Positions 10,185 to 36,482 of a stretch of 36,571 nucleotides of DNA are shown here, piece by piece; the stretch's first letter is position 1; every line of letters begins with the position of its first letter. The translations under genes and the position numbers were made by a program. The notes under the pieces are model-generated. The model was not told the origin of the DNA and did not search any database. It saw nothing but the letters and a program-made list of their open reading frames with translations. Source of the stretch: a virus; the IMG/VR virus record IMGVR_UViG_3300028025_000005, positions 1 to 36,571 of that record. The stretch is one strand, 5' to 3'.

Positions 10185-11393
10185 ATGTCAAATTCGATCT
10201 TAACCATCGACATGATTACAAGAAAAGCCCTCGAAATCCTCGAGAACAACCTTGTACTCACACGTAACGTAAACCGCCAGTATGACGATTCTTTCGCTGT
10301 TGAAGGCGCAAAAATCGGTTCTACTCTCCGTATCCGCTTACCAGACCGCGCTTTGGTAACTGACGGTGCCGCCCTGCAAGTTCAGGACGACAACGAGCAG
10401 TTCACCACTTTAGCTGTCAACAACCAAAAGCACATTGGTGTTAACTTCACCACAGCCGAATTGACAATGCAGATGGACGACTTTGCAGAACGTGTACTAA
10501 AGCCACGTATCTCCCAGTTGGCCTCGTCTATTGACGCTGACGTAGCTAACAGCTTCAAAACCATTTTCCAATCTGTTGGCACACCAGGCACAACGCCTTC
10601 AACTTCTTTGGTGCTGTTACAAGCCCAGCAGAAGCTGAACGAAGCCGCTGCCGTTATGTCACCACGCTACGCTACTGTTAACCCAGCAGCGAACGCAGGT
10701 TTGGTAGAAGGCATGAAAGGCCTGTTTAACCCAACTGACACCATTTCTAAGCAGTTCAAGAATGGCATGATGGGCGTAGGCGTTTTGGGCTTTGACGAGA
10801 TCAACATGAGCCAATCCATTAAACAGTTCACTACAGGTTCACGTAATGCAACTGGTACAACTGGCGCAGCCGTAACTACCGAAGGTTCAAACACCATCGT
10901 ATTGGCAGGTGTTGGTAACGCATTGACCATCCGCGCTGGCGACGTATTTACGGTTGCTGGTTGTTTCTCTGTTAACCCACAAACCCGCGAGTCTACTGGT
11001 TCACTCCAGCAGTTCGTAGTATTGGCTGACGTAACATCGTCCGCTGGTGGCGCTGCAACAGTAACAGTTAGCCCAGCTATGTTTAGCGCAAGCCAAGCAT
11101 TAGCTACGGTTACCTCACTGCCAGCAAACGGCGTAGTAACAACCTTCATTGGCGCCGCTTCTAGCCAGTACGCACAAAACTTGATTTACCATAAAGATGC
11201 GATCACTTTTGCGACCGCTGACTTGTTGGTACCACAGGGCGTAGATATGGCTTCACGTCAAGTTCACAACGGCATCTCGATGCGTATTGTTCGCCAATAC
11301 GACATCAACAATGACCGTTTGCCTTGCCGTATTGACGTACTCTATGGCTACAGCACGATCCGTCCACAAATGGGCGTTCGTATGTGGGGTTAA
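10185..11393 (+). CDS. Major capsid protein (P22 coat-like)
   Basis: 402 aa, close to P22 gp5 (430 aa). It starts MSNSILTIDMITRKALEILE, then NNLVLTRNVNRQYDDSFA and GAKIGSTLRIRLPDRALV, the characteristic opening of the P22 coat family (HK97 fold). Later come the spine-like HIGVNFTTAELTMQMDDFAE, an inserted Thr/Val-rich region (~220-320) where P22 carries its I-domain, and the end YDINNDRLPCRIDVLYGYST. A good ribosome site precedes it and a strong terminator follows, both consistent with very high expression. It is the best single marker of the phage's P22-like capsid lineage. Confidence 0.94.
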   Translation: MSNSILTIDMITRKALEILENNLVLTRNVNRQYDDSFAVEGAKIGSTLRIRLPDRALVTDGAALQVQDDNEQFTTLAVNNQKHIGVNFTTAELTMQMDDFAERVLKPRISQLASSIDADVANSFKTIFQSVGTPGTTPSTSLVLLQAQQKLNEAAAVMSPRYATVNPAANAGLVEGMKGLFNPTDTISKQFKNGMMGVGVLGFDEINMSQSIKQFTTGSRNATGTTGAAVTTEGSNTIVLAGVGNALTIRAGDVFTVAGCFSVNPQTRESTGSLQQFVVLADVTSSAGGAATVTVSPAMFSASQALATVTSLPANGVVTTFIGAASSQYAQNLIYHKDAITFATADLLVPQGVDMASRQVHNGISMRIVRQYDINNDRLPCRIDVLYGYSTIRPQMGVRMWG

Positions 11394-23784: not shown

Positions 23785-23939
23785 TAGCACCGTCCGTCCA
23801 TGTCAAACTTATCTTCGTCGTTTAGCCGGTCAATCTCAGCCACCAAACGGCGAAGCATTACTTCGATGTTCGTGTCAGGCGCGTATTCAGCGATGTCGTC
23901 TGCTAGTTGTAGCGCTTCTTCTGTTAATTTAACTGTCAT
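23784..23939 (-). CDS. 51-aa acidic protein downstream of the SNF2 helicase
   Basis: From ATG 23939 (inside the helicase stop, ATGA) to TAA 23784-23786. It reads MTVKLTEEALQLADDIAEYA, then PDTNIEVMLRRLVAEIDRLN, ending in an Asp-rich tail DEDKFDMDGRC. It is coupled on both sides. No family is recognised. Confidence 0.65.
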   Translation of the reverse strand: MTVKLTEEALQLADDIAEYAPDTNIEVMLRRLVAEIDRLNDEDKFDMDGRC

Positions 23940-25270
23940 TTCAATTCCTCCAATGCTATGTCGCTAATCGCCCGTTTGTCCTTCAGGGCGTCCCAAATCC
24001 TCAAATCAATCGTTTTATTAGTCAATAAAAGGTAAACCCATACGTCATGTTTCTGACCGCTGCGGTGCAGGCGCCCTACTGTTTGCTCGTATAGCTCAAG
24101 GCTCCACGGCAACGATACAAAGACCATTTTATTACCACCATGCTGTAAGTTCAGACCATGCCCTGCGCTTTTAGGGTGGATCAAGAGTAACTCAATCTTG
24201 CCCTCGTTCCAACGCTCGATAGCCTTGGGGTCGTTAATTGTCTGTGCGGTAGGATACCGACGCTTGAGTTCAGCCAATTCTTCAACGTAGTTGTAGACGA
24301 TGATGGTGTTGTCGTGCTGATTTTCCTCAATCAGTTCGTCTAGCATATCGAACTTGTGGGTACTAAACCAAATGGGCGTCTTGCTCACGTTCATGCGCCC
24401 AGGTGTGCTAGACGCCGTTGTAACCGTTTCGTAGACCCAACCCCCTGCCATCTGCTGCAACTTGCCTGTGACCACGCCTGCGTTGACGGCAGTGATCTCC
24501 ACGTCCTTGAACTCAATAACAAAATCCTTCTTCATCTTTTCGTATGGCGCGCGGTCTTGCAGGTCGCACTTCATCTCAACCGTATGGCAGGGTGGCAGCT
24601 TGTCAGCGTACTCGCCAGCGTCAAGCAAGAAGGTTGCAGGCTTGATCCGAGCCATGACCTGCGCTAGCGATCCTATGCGTGGCTCCCACTCACCAAAGTC
24701 CTTGTTGACCAGGACAAAGTACTGTTGCATAAACGCGCCTTTAGCCCGTCCAAGCAGGTCTTGGTTGACGATCTTGCATTGCCCAAACACATCCTCAAGG
24801 CCGTTGCTAGTAAACGAACCCGTCAAGCCCCAACGAATGTTGATCTTATCGACAATCTTAGCCAAGGCTTTGTAGCGTTTGCCTGATGGGTTCTTGAGCT
24901 TAGTCAACTCGTCAAACACGATGCCGTCAAAGTCTAGCTCTTGGTCAGCAAGCCATTGGATGTTGTCGTAGTTAGTTACTACTACGGGAAAACCCGAATG
25001 TAGGGCTTGGCTGCGTTGGATGGGCATACCCACCGCTACGGCGATGGGCGTGTCAGTTGCCCACTTGGGTTGCTCTACAGGCCATACGTCGGTGCAGACG
25101 CGTTTAGGGGCTAGCACAAGCCATCGTTTGACGAACTTGTAGCGCAACATATCTTGCATGGCAGTCAACGTCAGGGCGGTCTTTCCCGCGCCCACAGGCG
25201 CAAGAATCATGGCTCTGTTGTTTTCATACAAAAAGTCAGCGGCTTTTTCTTGGTAGTCACGTAGCTTCAT
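23936..25270 (-). CDS. SNF2-family DEAD-like helicase
   Basis: 444 aa. Superfamily 2 ATPase: motif I APVGAGKTALT (Gly26-Lys30-Thr31), motif Ia LVLAPKR, motif II FDELTK (Asp120-Glu121, with Leu-Thr in place of the common Ala-His), motif III GLTGSFTSN, motif V LLLIHPKSAGHGLNLQ and motif VI EQTVGRLHRSGQ (Arg400, Arg403). This is the small phage SNF2 helicase that often travels with a VRR-NUC nuclease. It likely translocates on double-stranded DNA during replication or recombination. It overlaps the methyltransferase gene by four bases (ATGA). All motifs are complete. Confidence 0.93.
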   Translation of the reverse strand: MKLRDYQEKAADFLYENNRAMILAPVGAGKTALTLTAMQDMLRYKFVKRWLVLAPKRVCTDVWPVEQPKWATDTPIAVAVGMPIQRSQALHSGFPVVVTNYDNIQWLADQELDFDGIVFDELTKLKNPSGKRYKALAKIVDKINIRWGLTGSFTSNGLEDVFGQCKIVNQDLLGRAKGAFMQQYFVLVNKDFGEWEPRIGSLAQVMARIKPATFLLDAGEYADKLPPCHTVEMKCDLQDRAPYEKMKKDFVIEFKDVEITAVNAGVVTGKLQQMAGGWVYETVTTASSTPGRMNVSKTPIWFSTHKFDMLDELIEENQHDNTIIVYNYVEELAELKRRYPTAQTINDPKAIERWNEGKIELLLIHPKSAGHGLNLQHGGNKMVFVSLPWSLELYEQTVGRLHRSGQKHDVWVYLLLTNKTIDLRIWDALKDKRAISDIALEELK

Positions 25271-26388
25271 AGCTTATCTACCAAGTCGATTCCATCGCCA
25301 ATCCACTGCATACACGGTACCGCCATGGAGTTACCAAGGGCTTTGTAGCGTAGTCCTTCAGGTGAAGTGTCTTTTTTACGCCACGGAATGTTAGTAAAAC
25401 CATCAGGGAAACCCTGTAAACGTTCGCACTCAGTAGGTGTTAAACGACGTACTTTGACTGAATCAGCAACAAATGTTTGAGCATGGTGCGATTGAACCGA
25501 CGGGCGCAACGCTTGCAGGGCAGGCGTTACAGTCAACGGTGTAGCGCTAAATGTATTGGCGCCTGCGTCCTCACGAATGCTGTACGCCTCGACAATAGGT
25601 ACGTTGCCACCACCTGTACCCCAACGGCTAGTCACGGTTTGACAGGTTTCACCCATCTCTTTAACACGGCTGTCAGCAGGGTGGGTTTCATAAACCTTTT
25701 GAACTAAAAAGGTTTCGCTTCCTCCACCGAGGACTCCACCGCTTGCCTTAAGGGTTCCTCCAATATCTCCCTCGCGGTATTGAGCAAGGCTACTTTCAAA
25801 GTATGCGGAAGGTTCTTTCCCCTGCGGTGCGCTCGGCGCAAGATCCCGGCGCAAGCTATGTCGCTCAAATAATACTGCGGCGGCAGGTCGCCAATCTCCA
25901 AGGTGTCCGACAACAAAGACACGACGCCTGCGCTGTGCCACTCCGCAGTACTGAGCGTCAAGCACTCGGTAGGCGAACCCATACCCGAGTTGAGCCACCG
26001 CCCCGAGGAAGGAACCAAAGTCCCGTCCTCCTGAGCTTGACAGGACACCGGGGACGTTTTCCCAGACAAACCAGTTCGGTCTAAAGTGGTCAAGCATCCC
26101 GCAATAGACGAGGGCCAAGTTACCACGTGGGTCATCCATTCCTTTCCTGAGTCCTGCGACTGAGAAGGATTGACAGGGGGTTCCTCCAACGAGAAGGTCA
26201 ATTGATCCATCTAAATTCCACTCCTTATACTTGGTCATGTCACCAAAATTAGTGACGTTGGGATAGTGATGCGCTAATACGGCTGATGGAAACGGCTCAA
26301 TCTCGGAGAACCCCGCAGGCGTCCATCCTAGGTCATGCCAAGCCATCGTGGCGGCTTCGATACCGCTACAGACTGATAAATACCTCAT
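25267..26388 (-). CDS. dcm: DNA (cytosine-5) methyltransferase
   Basis: 373 aa from the ATG at 26388, which overlaps the VRR-NUC stop (ATGA); six codons upstream are open but overlap more. All C5-methyltransferase motifs are present in order: I (LSVCSGIEAATMAWHDLG), IV (GGTPCQSFS, catalytic Cys72), VI (WENVPG, Glu110), VIII (AQRRRRVFVVG, 152-156), a target-recognition region (~165-300), IX (RRLTPTECERLQGFPDGF) and X (YKALGNSMAVPCMQWIG). It transfers methyl to C5 of cytosine. No cognate restriction enzyme is recognisable, so self-protection against host restriction is the likely role. A second open frame lies inside it (see 25704-26210). Confidence 0.95.
   Translation of the reverse strand: MRYLSVCSGIEAATMAWHDLGWTPAGFSEIEPFPSAVLAHHYPNVTNFGDMTKYKEWNLDGSIDLLVGGTPCQSFSVAGLRKGMDDPRGNLALVYCGMLDHFRPNWFVWENVPGVLSSSGGRDFGSFLGAVAQLGYGFAYRVLDAQYCGVAQRRRRVFVVGHLGDWRPAAAVLFERHSLRRDLAPSAPQGKEPSAYFESSLAQYREGDIGGTLKASGGVLGGGSETFLVQKVYETHPADSRVKEMGETCQTVTSRWGTGGGNVPIVEAYSIREDAGANTFSATPLTVTPALQALRPSVQSHHAQTFVADSVKVRRLTPTECERLQGFPDGFTNIPWRKKDTSPEGLRYKALGNSMAVPCMQWIGDGIDLVDKL
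25704..26210 (-). CDS. Candidate overprinted ORF inside the methyltransferase gene
   Basis: 168 codons on the same strand, shifted one base from the methyltransferase frame. The ATG at 26210 has AAGGAG ten bases upstream (26221-26226). The translation starts MDQLTFSLEEPPVNPSQSQD and contains SGMGSPTECLTLSTAEWHSA and YLSDIACAGILRRAHRRGKN. I have seen very similar proteins predicted beside or within phage methyltransferase genes. The similarity may be forced by the conserved PCQS, ENV and QRRRR codons of the main frame, so a real product is uncertain. If made, it would be a small basic-C-terminal protein. Confidence 0.35.
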   Translation of the reverse strand: MDQLTFSLEEPPVNPSQSQDSGKEWMTHVVTWPSSIAGCLTTLDRTGLSGKTSPVSCQAQEDGTLVPSSGRWLNSGMGSPTECLTLSTAEWHSAGVVSLLSDTLEIGDLPPQYYLSDIACAGILRRAHRRGKNLPHTLKVALLNTAREILEEPLRQAVESSVEEAKPF

Positions 26389-26672
26389 TGGTTGTCCTTC
26401 ATCCATGTGTCAATGTGTTCAATTGACCACAAGCAGGCGTAATTCTGATTGAGTTGTTTGAGGTTGCGAGCGTGGATCTGTTGCAAGGCTGACAGCTTAC
26501 CGCCATCGGTCTTGAGCTCCACGAACCAAGTCACACCGCCTGGCAAGCAAGCGATGCGGTCGGCTACGCCGCGCTGGGTGGGGGACTTGAACTTGTACGC
26601 TACGCCGCCAAGGTTTTGGACAGCCCATACAAAGTACTTTTCAATTTCTTTTTCGGATATTTTTGAGTTCAT
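26385..26672 (-). CDS. VRR-NUC domain nuclease
   Basis: 95 aa, the usual length of stand-alone viral VRR-NUC proteins (PD-(D/E)XK superfamily). Motifs: Glu in SEKEIEKYFV, GVADRIACLPGGV (Asp38) and TWFVELKTDGGKLSALQ (Glu52-x-Lys54, Gln64). Family members cut branched or single-strand-containing DNA and often accompany a SNF2 helicase, as here two genes downstream. First gene of the minus operon. No Shine-Dalgarno precedes the ATG, and a -10-like element ends only eight bases upstream, so the mRNA may be nearly leaderless. Confidence 0.92.
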   Translation of the reverse strand: MNSKISEKEIEKYFVWAVQNLGGVAYKFKSPTQRGVADRIACLPGGVTWFVELKTDGGKLSALQQIHARNLKQLNQNYACLWSIEHIDTWMKDNQ

Positions 26673-29743: not shown

Positions 29744-29916
29744 TTGATTGGCATAAAAAACCACCAAAATCTGTGCGCTCAGTAGAACAAGCGATGGATA
29801 GGGCAGAACAAAAAAAGCATGACCTTCCATTAGTGGTTCAAGTTTATGCAAGGGATTGGGACTTGGTAATTCTTGCAGACGAAATTAAGCGATTAAGAAA
29901 GGCACAAGAGAAATGA
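29740..29916 (+). CDS. 58-aa basic protein ending RKAQEK
   Basis: From ATGA overlap to TGA at 29914-29916. MIDWHKKPPKSVRSVEQAMD, then RAEQKKHDLPLVVQVYARDW and DLVILADEIKRLRKAQEK. It is basic and mostly helical with one beta-prone stretch. It is coupled to the polymerase gene, whose ATG lies inside its last codons. No family is recognised. Confidence 0.65.
   Translation: MIDWHKKPPKSVRSVEQAMDRAEQKKHDLPLVVQVYARDWDLVILADEIKRLRKAQEK
29894..29916 (+). repeat. Gene-junction repeat A, copy 4
   Basis: Fourth 23-base copy. It closes the 58-aa gene and supplies the ribosome site and start of the DNA polymerase. Confidence 0.95.
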
Positions 29917-31880
29917 TCTTGTGGATGGATTTCGAAACAAAATCACGCTGCGACTTACCTAGTCGTGGCGGTTACAACTACGCACAAGACCCTAGCACTG
30001 AGATTCTTTGCATGGCCTACGCGATTGACGATGAGGAGGTGTCCTTGTGGACGCCCGATCAGCCGTTTCCGCAGCAGGTAGCCGATCACATCCGCGCAGG
30101 CGGGCAGATCAGGGCGCACAACGCTGGCTTTGACCGCTTGATTACCGAGTACGTCCTATGCCCTGACTTCGGCGTACCAACCCCTAAACTTGAGCAGTGG
30201 TACTGCACAGCAGCGCAAGCCCGTGCCAACTGCGCTCCAGGCTCCCTTGAGGACGTTGGGCGCTTTGCTAGTAGTAGCATGAAGAAAGACCATCGTGGCA
30301 AGCAACTGATCCGTTTGTTGTGCATACCCAAAGCGGATGGTACATTTAGTACAGACCCCACCTTGATGGCAGAAATGGCTAACTACGCCCTGCAAGACGT
30401 GCGGACAATGCGTGCCATCTCACAAGCCATGCGCCAGTTATCCCCCGATGAACTCCTTGATTACCACGTCAATGAGCGTATCAATGACCGCGGTGTGATG
30501 TTAGACAAGCCCTTGGCGCAGGCGGCGATCCGCTACGCAGGGGAAGAATTAGAAGAAATACAGACGCTCGTTACCGAGATCACCGAAGGCGAAATCACCT
30601 CTGTCCGCAGCCCCCGCATGAGAGAATGGGTCTTGGCTCGGGTCGGTGACGAAGCTAAAAAGTTAATGGAAATGTACAAAGATGGCGATAAAAAATATTC
30701 GATCGACAAAACAGTTCGAGCTAACCTACTTATTCTTGCTGAAGAAAACCCCGATGAAATACCAGCGGAAGTTGCTGATGTTATCCAATGTGCGGACGAC
30801 CTATGGGCGTCTAGTGTTGCAAAATTCAAGAGATTAACGGAGTTAGCTGATGATGAAGATAATAGGGTGCGAGGTGCTTTCGTATTCGCAGGAGGAAGCG
30901 CAACAGGTCGCGCAAGCTCTTATGGCGCTCAAGTCCACAACTTCACCCGCAAGTGCGCTAAGGATCCTGATGCCACTCGACAAGCTATGGTTAGAGGCCA
31001 CGCAATTGTCCCTGCCTTTGGACGCCGAGTCACCGACGTCCTCAAAGGTATGCTCAGGCCAGCTTTGGTACCCGCTGTGGGAAAGTCCCTCGTCGTCGCC
31101 GACTGGTCAGGAATCGAAGCAAGGGTCAACCCCTGGCTCTCCAATTCCGACGCCGGTATTCAGAAGCTATCGCTTTTTGCAAGAGGGGAAGATGTCTATA
31201 AAGTTAACGCTTCCGCAACCTTCCACGTCCCCGTCGCTGACGTTGACGGTGAACAGCGGCAAATTGGAAAAGTCCAAGAGTTAGCCTGTGGTTTTGCAGG
31301 TGGTGTGGGCGCGTTTGCTGCGATGGGCAGGGCGTATGGCATCTTGCTACCTGAACCCCAAGCCAAGCGCATGGTGGCAGGGTGGCGCCTTGCGAACCCG
31401 TGGGCTGTCCCGTATTGGCAGAACCTCGAGTCAGCGTACACCCGCGCTATGCGTAACAAAAACCATGAGTTCTCGGCGGGTAGGGTTACCTATATGTACG
31501 ATGGTCAGCATCTTTGGTATGCTCTACCTTCTGGGCGCGTTCTCTGTTATCCGTTTGCCAAGTTAGACGCCGATGGTGTCACTTACGCCAAGGCAGCATG
31601 GAAACCCGCAGCCGATGCGAAGGAATGGCCCAGAGCAAGACTATGGAAAGGTTTAGCCTGTGAAAACATCACCCAAGCGGTTGCCAATGATTTACTTCGA
31701 TATTCTTTGCGTCAATTGGATGGTGTGGTACTACACGTCCATGATGAAATTGTGGTCGAAACAGATAGACCCGAAGCAGTAGCCCTTGAGATGGAGCGCG
31801 TCATGTGTACCCCACCTGATTGGGCGCAGGGCATCCCTTTGGGTGTAGAAATAGCAACAATGCAGCGGTACGGAAAATAA
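29913..31880 (+). CDS. Family A DNA polymerase with 3'-5' exonuclease
   Basis: 655 aa, typical for phage PolA. Exonuclease: Exo I MDFET (Asp6, Glu8), Exo II RAHNAGFDR (Asn70, Asp74), Exo III NYALQDV (Tyr158, Asp162). Polymerase: template grip SATGRASSYGAQVHNFTR (~329-346), motif A VVADWSGIEARV (Asp397, Glu402), motif B RQIGKVQELACGFAGGVGAF (Arg449, Lys453), motif C LHVHDEIVVE (His610-Asp611-Glu612). All catalytic residues are present, so it should be a proofreading replicative polymerase. The start shares the ATGA of the 58-aa gene and is read from the junction repeat's ribosome site. Confidence 0.96.
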   Translation: MILWMDFETKSRCDLPSRGGYNYAQDPSTEILCMAYAIDDEEVSLWTPDQPFPQQVADHIRAGGQIRAHNAGFDRLITEYVLCPDFGVPTPKLEQWYCTAAQARANCAPGSLEDVGRFASSSMKKDHRGKQLIRLLCIPKADGTFSTDPTLMAEMANYALQDVRTMRAISQAMRQLSPDELLDYHVNERINDRGVMLDKPLAQAAIRYAGEELEEIQTLVTEITEGEITSVRSPRMREWVLARVGDEAKKLMEMYKDGDKKYSIDKTVRANLLILAEENPDEIPAEVADVIQCADDLWASSVAKFKRLTELADDEDNRVRGAFVFAGGSATGRASSYGAQVHNFTRKCAKDPDATRQAMVRGHAIVPAFGRRVTDVLKGMLRPALVPAVGKSLVVADWSGIEARVNPWLSNSDAGIQKLSLFARGEDVYKVNASATFHVPVADVDGEQRQIGKVQELACGFAGGVGAFAAMGRAYGILLPEPQAKRMVAGWRLANPWAVPYWQNLESAYTRAMRNKNHEFSAGRVTYMYDGQHLWYALPSGRVLCYPFAKLDADGVTYAKAAWKPAADAKEWPRARLWKGLACENITQAVANDLLRYSLRQLDGVVLHVHDEIVVETDRPEAVALEMERVMCTPPDWAQGIPLGVEIATMQRYGK

Positions 31881-31931: not shown

Positions 31932-34232
31932 ATGAACTTTTTAGAATATATCACGAACCTAGCCCCTGAGGGCGAAACAGCCTTAATTGTGCGTCAAAAG
32001 CCACAATTGGACGGTAACGGGCTGATGCAGAGCCATGCCGATGGCACGATCAAGTGTACGTGGCCTGCCTTTTTGCCTACCGCCAAGACCAAGCCCGACT
32101 GGGCTATCTACGGCAATACAGGCTCGTTTATCCTTGACCGCTTTGCTGATGGCAAAGTGTCGGCATCCGCAGCCAATTGCGAGTACGTGTTAGTGATGAT
32201 GTTAGATGACATCGGCACCAAGTCCAAAGAGCCACCGCTTGCGCCTACTTGGATCATGGAAACGTCTGAAGGCTCGTACCAATGGGGCTACGCCTTCTCG
32301 GATCAGCCATCCAAGGGCGACTTTACCGCAGCAATCAAGGCGATTGCTAATGCAGGCTACACCGATCCAGGCGCGACCAACGCCGTTCGCAACTTCCGTC
32401 TGCCTGGTTCTGTAAACCTCAAGCCTGGGCGCGGTAATTTTGCGTCCGTGTTGGTTGAGTTCCACCCCGAGCGTGAGTACACCCTAGCCGAGATATGCAC
32501 CGCCCTAGACGTGGTGCCTGACCCAACCGACACCGCACAAAACAACCCCATTCGCCTTGCTGACACTGGCAAGGACTCGGTAATGACGTGGCTCAACGAG
32601 CAGGGCTTGGTACTGTCCGCGCCCAATGGCGAGGGCTGGATGGGTGTGGTCTGTCCTAACAACGGTGAGCATACTGATGGCAACATCGAAGGGCGTTACA
32701 AGCCACTCGATCGTAGTTACTGTTGCCTGCACGGTCATTGCGTCGACTTTAGCTCGCAGATGTTCCTTGATTGGGTAGCTGACAACGGTGGCCCTGAGGT
32801 CGATCATGGCTTGCGTGACGAACTGATCGCCGAGAAGATGACCCTTGCTCTGTCCAAGATCACACCGAATGAAATCTACCGTGACACCGCAGCCGAACTG
32901 ATCGCTGAAGTCGAGCGCAAAGAGCTTGGACGCATTGAGAAGGCTGATTGGTATCAGCGCTTTGCGTACATTCAAGACGATGAGTCCTACTTTGATATGC
33001 AAGACAGACGTGAGGTCAGTCGCCAGACGTTCAACGCTCTGTTCCGTCACATCCCCTGCAAGTCGATTCACACCGCCCGCAAGGTTGAAGCGTCGATCTG
33101 TTTTGACGAGAACAGGCAAGCGATGGGCGCCAAGGCTCTAGTTGGCGTCACCTACGCTGCGGGTGAGGATGTAATCGTGACCCGTGACGGTGACCTGTTC
33201 GGTAATCGTTGGCGTGACGCCCGTCCTGATTTGTCAGGGGTGCAAACCGGTGACATCGCCATGTGGCTAAATCATTGCCGAGAGCTAGTCCCTGAGCCTG
33301 CCGAGCTAGATCATATCCTTGATGTGATGGCTTTCAAGGTGCAACACCCTGAGATCAAAGTTAATCATGCGATCCTGCACGCGGGGGATGAAGGTAGTGG
33401 CAAGGATACATTCTGGGCGCCATTCATTTGGGCCGTCTGTGGTGACCACTTGAAAAACAGGGGCATCATGGACAACAACTCCGTGAACAGTCAATGGGGC
33501 TACCAACTCGAGTCCGAGATCCTGATTATTAACGAACTCAAAGAGCCTGACGCAGCCACCCGTAGGCAACTCGCCAACCAACTCAAACCGATCATTGCGG
33601 CCCCGCCTGAGATGTTGCCAATTAATCGCAAGGGCCTACATCCCTATTACATGGCGAACCGCCTGTTTGTGTTGGCTTTTAGCAACGACCCTGTGCCTAT
33701 CTCGCTTGCATCGCAAGACCGCCGTTGGTTCTGTGTGTGGTCTACCGCACCAAGAATGGACTCCCGCCAAGCCAAGAAAATTTGGGATTGGTACAGGGCA
33801 GGCGGTTTTGGCATGATCGCCCGCTTTTTGCGTGACCGTGATGTGTCCCAATTCAACCCGTCTGCACCTCCGATGTGGACAGAGTTCAAAGCAAACCTAG
33901 TCGAACACGGTATGTCCATGGCTGAGTCGTATTTGGTTGATATGTTACGAGAGCGCAAGAGCGAATTCGCCCGTGGTGTCATTGGCTCGCCTTTCCATTC
34001 TTTGTGCGATCGCCTGGCGGGCCAAGCCCCGAGTGGTGTCAAAGTGCCTCAGGCTGCGTTACTCCATGCACTCAAGGAAGCGGGTTGGGTTGATTGTGGG
34101 CGCATCAAATCAAGGGACTATGACACTAAGAAGCACATCTTTGCCTGTCCTGAGATGGCAGACCTTAGCAAGTCGGAACTGCGTAGGATGGTGGAGGAAA
34201 ACCCACCGCCCAAAATGGTTCTAGTTAAGTAA
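31932..34232 (+). CDS. Primase-SF3 helicase (PrimPol/DUF5906-like)
   Basis: 766 aa with GAAAGGAATTAA before the ATG. The N-terminal part has the archaeo-eukaryotic primase pattern YVLVMMLDDIGTK (Asp92-Asp93) and RNFRLPGSVNLKPG (~153-166). A putative zinc site follows (Cys241, His247, Cys264/265, His267, Cys270 in VCPNNGEHTDG ... SYCCLHGHC). The C-terminal helicase has Walker A HAGDEGSGKDTFWAP (Gly485-Lys491), Walker B ILIINELKE (Glu535), motif C LAFSNDP (Asn585) and an arginine finger region QDRRWFCVW. This is the NrS-1/DUF5906-like arrangement. It should prime and unwind at the origin and work with the polymerase upstream. No frameshift. Confidence 0.92.
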   Translation: MNFLEYITNLAPEGETALIVRQKPQLDGNGLMQSHADGTIKCTWPAFLPTAKTKPDWAIYGNTGSFILDRFADGKVSASAANCEYVLVMMLDDIGTKSKEPPLAPTWIMETSEGSYQWGYAFSDQPSKGDFTAAIKAIANAGYTDPGATNAVRNFRLPGSVNLKPGRGNFASVLVEFHPEREYTLAEICTALDVVPDPTDTAQNNPIRLADTGKDSVMTWLNEQGLVLSAPNGEGWMGVVCPNNGEHTDGNIEGRYKPLDRSYCCLHGHCVDFSSQMFLDWVADNGGPEVDHGLRDELIAEKMTLALSKITPNEIYRDTAAELIAEVERKELGRIEKADWYQRFAYIQDDESYFDMQDRREVSRQTFNALFRHIPCKSIHTARKVEASICFDENRQAMGAKALVGVTYAAGEDVIVTRDGDLFGNRWRDARPDLSGVQTGDIAMWLNHCRELVPEPAELDHILDVMAFKVQHPEIKVNHAILHAGDEGSGKDTFWAPFIWAVCGDHLKNRGIMDNNSVNSQWGYQLESEILIINELKEPDAATRRQLANQLKPIIAAPPEMLPINRKGLHPYYMANRLFVLAFSNDPVPISLASQDRRWFCVWSTAPRMDSRQAKKIWDWYRAGGFGMIARFLRDRDVSQFNPSAPPMWTEFKANLVEHGMSMAESYLVDMLRERKSEFARGVIGSPFHSLCDRLAGQAPSGVKVPQAALLHALKEAGWVDCGRIKSRDYDTKKHIFACPEMADLSKSELRRMVEENPPPKMVLVK

Positions 34233-35961: not shown

Positions 35962-36014
35962 GCTTTTCACCTTAATTTAGTTTATGAAATGGGTAAAACC
36001 TAGCCCATAAATAG

Positions 36015-36073: not shown

Positions 36074-36097
36074 TTTGTGGGTCATTTTGTGGGTCAT
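36074..36097. repeat. Tandem 12-bp repeat TTTGTGGGTCAT
   Basis: Two perfect tandem copies (36074-36085 and 36086-36097); a third copy stands at 36356-36367. The second and third copies are both followed by GTGGA, giving a 17-bp direct repeat (36086-36102 and 36356-36372). They flank and interleave with the DnaA-box-like array and may be part of the origin. Confidence 0.85.
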
Positions 36098-36107
36098 GTG
36101 GATAGCG

Positions 36108-36482
36108 TGTGGACAATTTGAAAAGGGGCTGAATTGTCCACAAATCGAGGGTAGAGAGCCTTATAAAACCTAGCTTTTGCTTGGTTTGTGGACAATGTGG
36201 ACAATAGTTTTAAGGTTATTCAATGGATATCACATATTTATATGTCAGTAGGGCGCACGGTTACAAGTCAGCGACTTAAAAGGGGGTGTCCACATTGTCC
36301 ACATTGTCCACAATTCGCGCCCCTGCTCTCCGCAATTTGCCAAAAAGTTTTGGGGTTTGTGGGTCATGTGGACAACCTAAAAACTAATTGTCCACATTGT
36401 CCACATTGTCCACAAGTACCGCGCCCGCGCTTGTTGGCTACCAACTAAAAACACATTGTCCACATTGTCCACATTGTCCACG
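36108..36482. other. Putative replication origin: array of DnaA-box-like 9-mers
   Basis: The 9-mer TTGTCCACA occurs eight times on the plus strand (36134, 36295, 36304, 36388, 36397, 36406, 36456, 36465) and four times on the minus strand (36108, 36187, 36196, 36367), plus two imperfect copies (36286, 36474). Most lie head to tail with no gap, in three tandem blocks of three. It differs from the E. coli DnaA box TTATCCACA by one base and equals the form favoured in GC-rich actinobacteria. The region has no gene, is flanked by AT-rich stretches and adjoins the terminal repeat. Host DnaA or a phage initiator is likely to bind. Origin function is inferred. Confidence 0.75.

Follow-up and report, generated by a model that had tools for sequence, protein, structure and literature searches.

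Self-encoded initiators and their iterons

Initiator-iteron pairs, together with the covariation of both partners, are already known. Among the described systems, the following can be compared with the locus studied here: (i) P4, whose alpha protein binds origin repeats via a winged helix (PMC4234260); (ii) PICIs, in whose origins two iteron sets flank an AT-rich region (PMC6092414); (iii) the Vibrio PLE, where initiator and iterons covary, module swaps being selected by a nuclease directed at the origin (PMC8263062); (iv) begomoviruses, in which strains differing in the iteron and in a Rep residue are replication-incompatible (PMC2974675); (v) NrS-1, which recognises an 8-nt single-stranded template site (PMC8718748); and (vi) pRN1, whose ORF904 protein ends in a winged helix (PMC4234260).

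The window analysed here (i.e., the whole stretch of viral DNA, 36,571 nucleotides) corresponds to a circular assembly, as deduced from its 60-bp terminal repeat, and the families of its portal, scaffold, major head and tail-fibre proteins indicate a podophage. The nearest phage records are environmental (MW202483, with 54% identity in the primase, and DSL-LC05, with 67% identity in TerL), and no relatives were found in contigs of cellular genomes. On the leftward strand, the gene at 35683-35970 matches Kyano_Gp96 (5.8e-17), otherwise known from cyanophage-type genomes, and a block at 23936-26672 encodes an SNF2-type helicase, a C5 DNA methyltransferase and a VRR-NUC-like endonuclease. Between the leftward gene that ends at 35970 and TerS, which starts at about 200, across the circle junction, there is an intergenic array of 9-bp repeats. 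This array is very probably the replication origin of a P22-like podophage, whose own P4-alpha-like primase-helicase would bind the iterons through its wing. New features with respect to the systems listed above are a podophage family as carrier, gapless 9-mers and a wing pattern that extends over many natural variants.

As in P4 alpha, primase, helicase and a winged helix binding the origin repeats (PMC4234260) would be joined in a single protein, here by prediction. Nevertheless, P4 alpha has a primase of the Toprim (bacterial) type and belongs to a satellite, whereas the protein of this complete podophage has a RepB/AEP-like N-terminal part; it does not belong to the P4 alpha family proper, as that part matches RepB_primase, not Toprim, and the profile of its winged helix has no sequence match among solved chains, origin-binding domains included. 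The PICI / SaPI Pri-Rep-ori modules share with this locus a self-encoded primase-helicase and the existence of several initiator alleles with different iterons (PMC6092414). They differ in that (i) they reside in chromosomal islands, not in a free phage; (ii) here, single wing residues pair with single unit bases across dozens of natural variants; and (iii) here, a core element is common to all classes. The Vibrio PLE uses another initiator family (RepA_N) and three iterons of approximately 30 bp, and only two module types have been reported, with swaps of whole domains instead of the residue-to-base pattern found here. In the iteron-related domain of begomovirus Rep, a short protein stretch likewise predicts an iteron base (PMC2974675), but that Rep acts by rolling circle in plant viruses with single-stranded DNA, and neither its protein nor its mechanism is related to those considered here. 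As for NrS-1, its primase chains match residues 464-601 of the primase-helicase (E 2.5e-4), which thus contains an NrS-1-type helicase domain, but its single-stranded site contrasts with the iteron array of this phage. Finally, pRN1 ORF904 shares the C-terminal winged helix, while the pRN1 origin is a stem-loop without iterons.

Organization of the array and its counterparts in related phages

An exact-match scan of the window located 12 copies of TTGTCCACA within 36108-36473, four on the minus strand (starting at 36108, 36187, 36196 and 36367) and eight on the plus strand (starting at 36134, 36295, 36304, 36388, 36397, 36406, 36456 and 36465), and no exact copy elsewhere in the window. Only 0.26 copies are expected in the whole genome from its base composition, which confirms the original prediction that twelve perfect copies on both strands lie far beyond chance. 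When up to one mismatch was allowed, the window held 21 matches, compared to 8.7 +/- 2.9 in shuffled sequences, and none of 100 shuffles reached 21. The gapless tandem triplets described in that prediction do exist, but of the three only the one at 36388-36414 is perfect, since GTGTCCACA (36286-36294) and TTGTCCACG (36474-36482), which are members of the other two, each carry one mismatch. Three TGACCCACA and one TATCCACA (36076-36104, 36358-36366) lie in register with the TTGTCCACA copies, so that the array, with its 12 exact and six related units, spans 36076-36482; it is intergenic, as previously proposed for 36108-36482, but starts approximately 30 bp further to the left. The sole open frame over it (36188-36448) is built of the repeats themselves.

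From left to right, the array begins with the outer left iterons (36076-36116, minus strand), which comprise two TGACCCACA (36076-36084 and 36088-36096), one TATCCACA (36097-36104) and one TTGTCCACA (36108-36116), at positions kept in other unit classes. A single forward TTGTCCACA follows at 36134-36142, and several classes have a forward unit at -114 to -124 from the core. The inner left pair (36187-36204), gapless and in reverse orientation, lies at -73 and -64 from the core and is kept in all unit classes compared. Next come an AT-rich spacer (36205-36259), which is the candidate melting site, and, on the plus strand, the conserved core element GTTACAAGTCAGCGACT (36260-36276; consensus GTTAYAAGYCAGCGAYT), nearly invariant in all unit classes. 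To the right of the core, the gapless forward triplet at 36286-36312, whose first unit is GTGTCCACA, occupies +28, +37 and +46 and is kept across classes. It is followed by a gapless reverse pair of TGACCCACA and TTGTCCACA (36358-36375), kept in most classes, by the perfect forward triplet (36388-36414) and by the outer right forward triplet (36456-36482), whose last unit is TTGTCCACG. Two opposed iteron sets are thus arranged around an AT-rich region, although the enrichment is modest (65% AT vs 52% in the genome); the spacer is AT-rich in an alignment of 32 sequences as well. The T-rich DNA at 114-190, formerly suggested as the melting site, was rejected as such, as it falls outside this conserved layout, beside TerS, the AT-rich stretch inside it being the spacer. 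The GC-skew analysis advised at that time was carried out and turned out to be uninformative: the skew follows gene orientation, and its detrended minimum (27971) and maximum (5649) do not mark the region, so it was discarded as an origin marker.

Hundreds of related phages, gathered by scans with the primase-helicase and TerL, were compared. Their arrays sit at the same intergenic spot, upstream of TerS/TerL, but with a different unit sequence: among others, TTGTCCACA, TGACTNACA/TGACTACA, TGACAATTTGACC, TTGCCTACA, TTGTCCATA, TGACCCACA, TGACAATT, ACTGCCGAA, ATAGCCTAA and TGCCGAA were observed. Three main classes (GTCC, TGACT and AATTTGAC) can be distinguished, and they are scarcely mixed inside one genome. 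While the unit varies, the layout is fixed: reverse units at about -73/-64 and a forward triplet at about 28/37/46 relative to the core are present in all classes compared, and in most classes two reverse units near 97/106 and forward ones near 130/139 are added. In the TTGTCCACA, TGACT and TGACCCACA classes the core-relative positions recur within a few bp, and the TGACAATT class shares those of the left side and of the first triplet to the right. Such changes of unit occur between very close relatives, the primase-helicase being up to 95% identical and TerS, TerL and PolA up to 99% identical in phages with other units; across unit classes, identities of up to 98-99% are seen for TerS, TerL, PolA and portal. 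At the level of DNA, the array region had no match in phage records, and many distant relatives have no array detectable by the method used. In distant relatives (L384, L376-L379 and L382), other short repeats (GCTAACAGC and GCCCCTAGC, in 7-13 copies) occur downstream of the primase gene.

Since all iteron classes retain the core, its binder is probably not the variable wing but something else. A hairpin in the core (AAGTC-AGC-GACTT) was considered and rejected: it is perfect in the window, but one of its pairs holds in just 11 of 32 sequences.

The primase-helicase and its covariation with the unit

The proposed initiator (31932-34232, plus strand) is a primase-helicase of 766 amino acids with a RepB-primase-like N-terminal part, a DUF5906 / NrS-1-like helicase and a C-terminal winged helix. 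Against Pfam, it matches DUF5906 (1.7e-9) and, just below the cut-off of that family, RepB_primase (6e-5); it also matches phrog_1156, a DNA primase (2.7e-15). Among viral proteins, the best match by fold (E 1.7e-14) is to a protein with an NrS-1-like helicase domain, and other phage primases and primase-polymerases are found among the viral fold matches. A primase, a helicase and a C-terminal DNA-binding domain, the latter predicted as a winged helix, are therefore united in one phage protein. The winged helix (residues ~688-754; 33993-34193, plus strand) is assigned from AlphaFold2 models. The full-length model (pLDDT 82) has helices at 688-698, 707-716 and 747-754 and strands at 720-725 and 734-738, and a model of residues 632-766, built from 62 sequences, adopts a winged-helix topology with pLDDT 92-95 over it. 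In a fold search against the PDB, the domain had no significant match (best E 0.08); winged-helix proteins, RTP and SarA among them, made up most of the top ones. The modelled wing turn comprises residues 726-733 and hence residues 726, 728 and 731. The codons of residues 726-731 (K726 S727 R728 D729 Y730 D731) lie at 34107-34124 on the plus strand and, judging from covariation with the unit, contain the putative specificity residues; S727, placed between the specificity residues 726 and 728, is nearly invariant.

Regarding which protein tracks the unit, the segment ~711-744 of the primase-helicase was the only one of the tested features to do so. In the 41 relatives with both a primase-helicase gene and an array, residue 726 separates the three main classes at every locus (K in 24/24, M in 12/12 and A in 5/5), and of all 766 positions it has the highest mutual information with class, followed by residue 731. 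Nearest-neighbour agreement with class reaches 0.97-0.98 for residues 711-744, compared to 0.59 for residues 697-716 and 0.65 for residues 753-766. Simple linkage between the array and the 3' end of the primase gene is consequently insufficient as an explanation, because the agreement decreases (from 0.97 to 0.65) towards the end of the protein, whose final residues are encoded closer to the array. The agreement of TerS, PolA and portal with class lies within shuffles (for TerS, 0.546, with shuffles up to 0.599), and that of TerL slightly above; PolA, a family A DNA polymerase (29913-31880, plus strand; PF00476, 3e-16), belongs to the same replication module and does not track the unit class.

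Writing the unit as T-T-G-n4-C-n6-A-n8-A, the pattern can be followed base by base over 96 arrays. K726 goes with n6=C in 57/57 arrays, D726 with G in 2/2, Y726 with T in 3/3 and M726 with T in 5/6, while A726 goes mostly with A (17/24). R728, in turn, goes with n8=C in 64/66 arrays, as opposed to 0/30 when residue 728 is not Arg (Fisher p 7e-23, kinship being ignored). Both exceptions are detection artefacts: in L366 the sequence stops before the array and holds a low-complexity CTGGTCTGGT run, and L375 shares its contig with L055, where the array does end in ACA. At the contig end of L366, positions 10500-10777 are a low-complexity CTGGTCTGGTGTCTGG run. Further scans brought new wing types, and these came with new units. 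Residue 731 shows no more than a tendency with respect to n4 (for D731, T in 35, C in 9 and A in 1), given that the strict class rule, according to which K726+D731 corresponds to GTCCACA, agreed with the modal unit of only roughly half the new KRD loci; the remaining ones had [GA][CA]CCACA instead, with n6 and n8 unchanged. In the 51 loci fetched after the class rule had been written, K726 agreed with n6 in 31/31 and R728 with n8 in 36/36 (0/15 for non-R728), a test which is partly post hoc and not cleanly blind, since the per-base n6/n8 rule was framed after part of these loci had been seen.

The effects of both residues are separated in nature: KSD wings go with TTGTCCATA and KRD wings with TTGTCCACA, which contrasts S728 with R728, while ARS, YRA and MRT wings keep ..ACA and have an altered n6. 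As a phylogenetic control, a quick tree of residues up to 690 was used, leaving out the C-terminus; its reach is limited by recombination between phages. On this tree, 9 independent pairs bear on K726 and n6=C and 8 on R728 and n8=C; 7.9 and 7.6 of them, respectively, are concordant and none is opposed (median p 0.008). The crossed pairs (K726/n8 and R728/n6) were not significant.

What the comparison of sequences shows, then, is a unit that varies in step with particular wing residues within a constant layout. The suggestions that the region is a phage origin and that a phage initiator such as the primase-helicase binds it are both strongly favoured by this tracking of three wing residues and by the constancy of the layout. 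Covariation places iteron specificity in the DNA-binding domain of the initiator, and from it we infer physical binding, base contacts, melting and origin activity. The mechanism would be as follows: (i) the C-terminal winged-helix domain of the primase-helicase would bind the 9-bp iterons, the wing turn (726, 728 and 731) reading the variable positions of the unit; (ii) protein on the left pair and on the right triplet would flank the AT-rich spacer and the core; (iii) the helicase part would open the spacer at 36205-36259; and (iv) synthesis would be started by the primase part, the scheme as a whole resembling that of P4 alpha and of PICI Pri-Rep replicons.

Alternative readings and biological meaning

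Among the other readings, the one that survives best, although it is unlikely, is that the array does not act as an origin: the primase-helicase, or some other protein, would bind it as an operator or enhancer of the divergent early genes. Initiators often repress nearby promoters too. The array lies between the leftward small genes and the rightward TerS, and the comparative data name its reader, not the outcome of binding. That this reader is the primase-helicase argues against a role as operator only, and the small leftward genes, in which Pfam detects none of the known DNA-binding families, were rejected as binders of the array. Moreover, in its geometry, with opposed iteron sets on either side of an AT-rich spacer and a core, the array corresponds to known primase-helicase origins (PMC6092414).

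Still less probable is that the repeats are host DnaA boxes, through which the array would load DnaA on the phage DNA or titrate it from the host origin. As far as the letters go, the resemblance is genuine: TTGTCCACA differs from TTATCCACA by a single base and is listed as the high-affinity DnaA box of the actinobacteria Mycobacterium and Streptomyces (PMC4285127). Nevertheless, neither TTATCCACA nor TTATNCACA occurs as an exact copy in the window, and the DnaA-box-like string is only one of the many unit types in this phage family. The TTGTCCACA array is missing in some close relatives, one of the outcomes named at the outset as refuting DnaA, but a different unit stands there instead: in relatives with the same replication genes (primase-helicase up to 95% identical, and TerS/TerL up to 99%), the box is replaced by non-DnaA-like units (TGACTNACA, TGACAATT and others) and the layout is kept. 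With the unit swapped in such near-identical phages, and tracking wing residues of a phage protein, neither the loading of host DnaA nor its titration, both raised initially, is supported. In any case, dual use with DnaA may occur in the TTGTCCACA class alone. A 99-aa protein annotated as a DnaA helix-turn-helix is encoded in a distant relative (L400:7083-7379; MW202483) and is absent from the window; tblastn matches to it were obtained in L096, L205, L207, L208, L212-L218, L220, L229, L231 and L232.

Terminase sites are often located near TerS/TerL, and the array is just upstream of both genes, but a packaging site with repeats bound by the small terminase TerS is highly improbable, given that the unit does not track TerS (whose agreement with class, as stated above, is inside shuffles), that this phage and L049, which has TGACAATTTGACC as its unit, share 99.3% identity in TerS, and that relatives have a different conserved stretch between array and TerS. 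Positions 61-130 of the window, where a G-rich run precedes a CACGAACAATTTTTTTT-like stretch, are similar in many relatives between array and TerS and constitute a candidate terminase site or TerS promoter.

Returning to an origin read by the phage's own primase-helicase, it seems probable, if with clearly less confidence than for the origin itself, that the origin of this lytic phage lineage is specified by an evolvable residue-to-base code, in which residues 726, 728 and, less clearly, 731 set single iteron bases, giving many mutually incompatible replicon types in near-identical phages. If such a code is true, the origin sequence would be predictable from the protein, and the driver would be escape from origin-targeting parasites or from cross-talk between co-infecting relatives. 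A cluster that looks like textbook DnaA boxes can be something else, which matters for the automatic annotation of phage origins. Metagenomes provide dozens of natural wing/iteron combinations within one phage family, in near-identical backgrounds and with clean single-residue contrasts, and these combinations make it testable how origin specificity evolves and whether this specificity delimits incompatibility groups in lytic phages.
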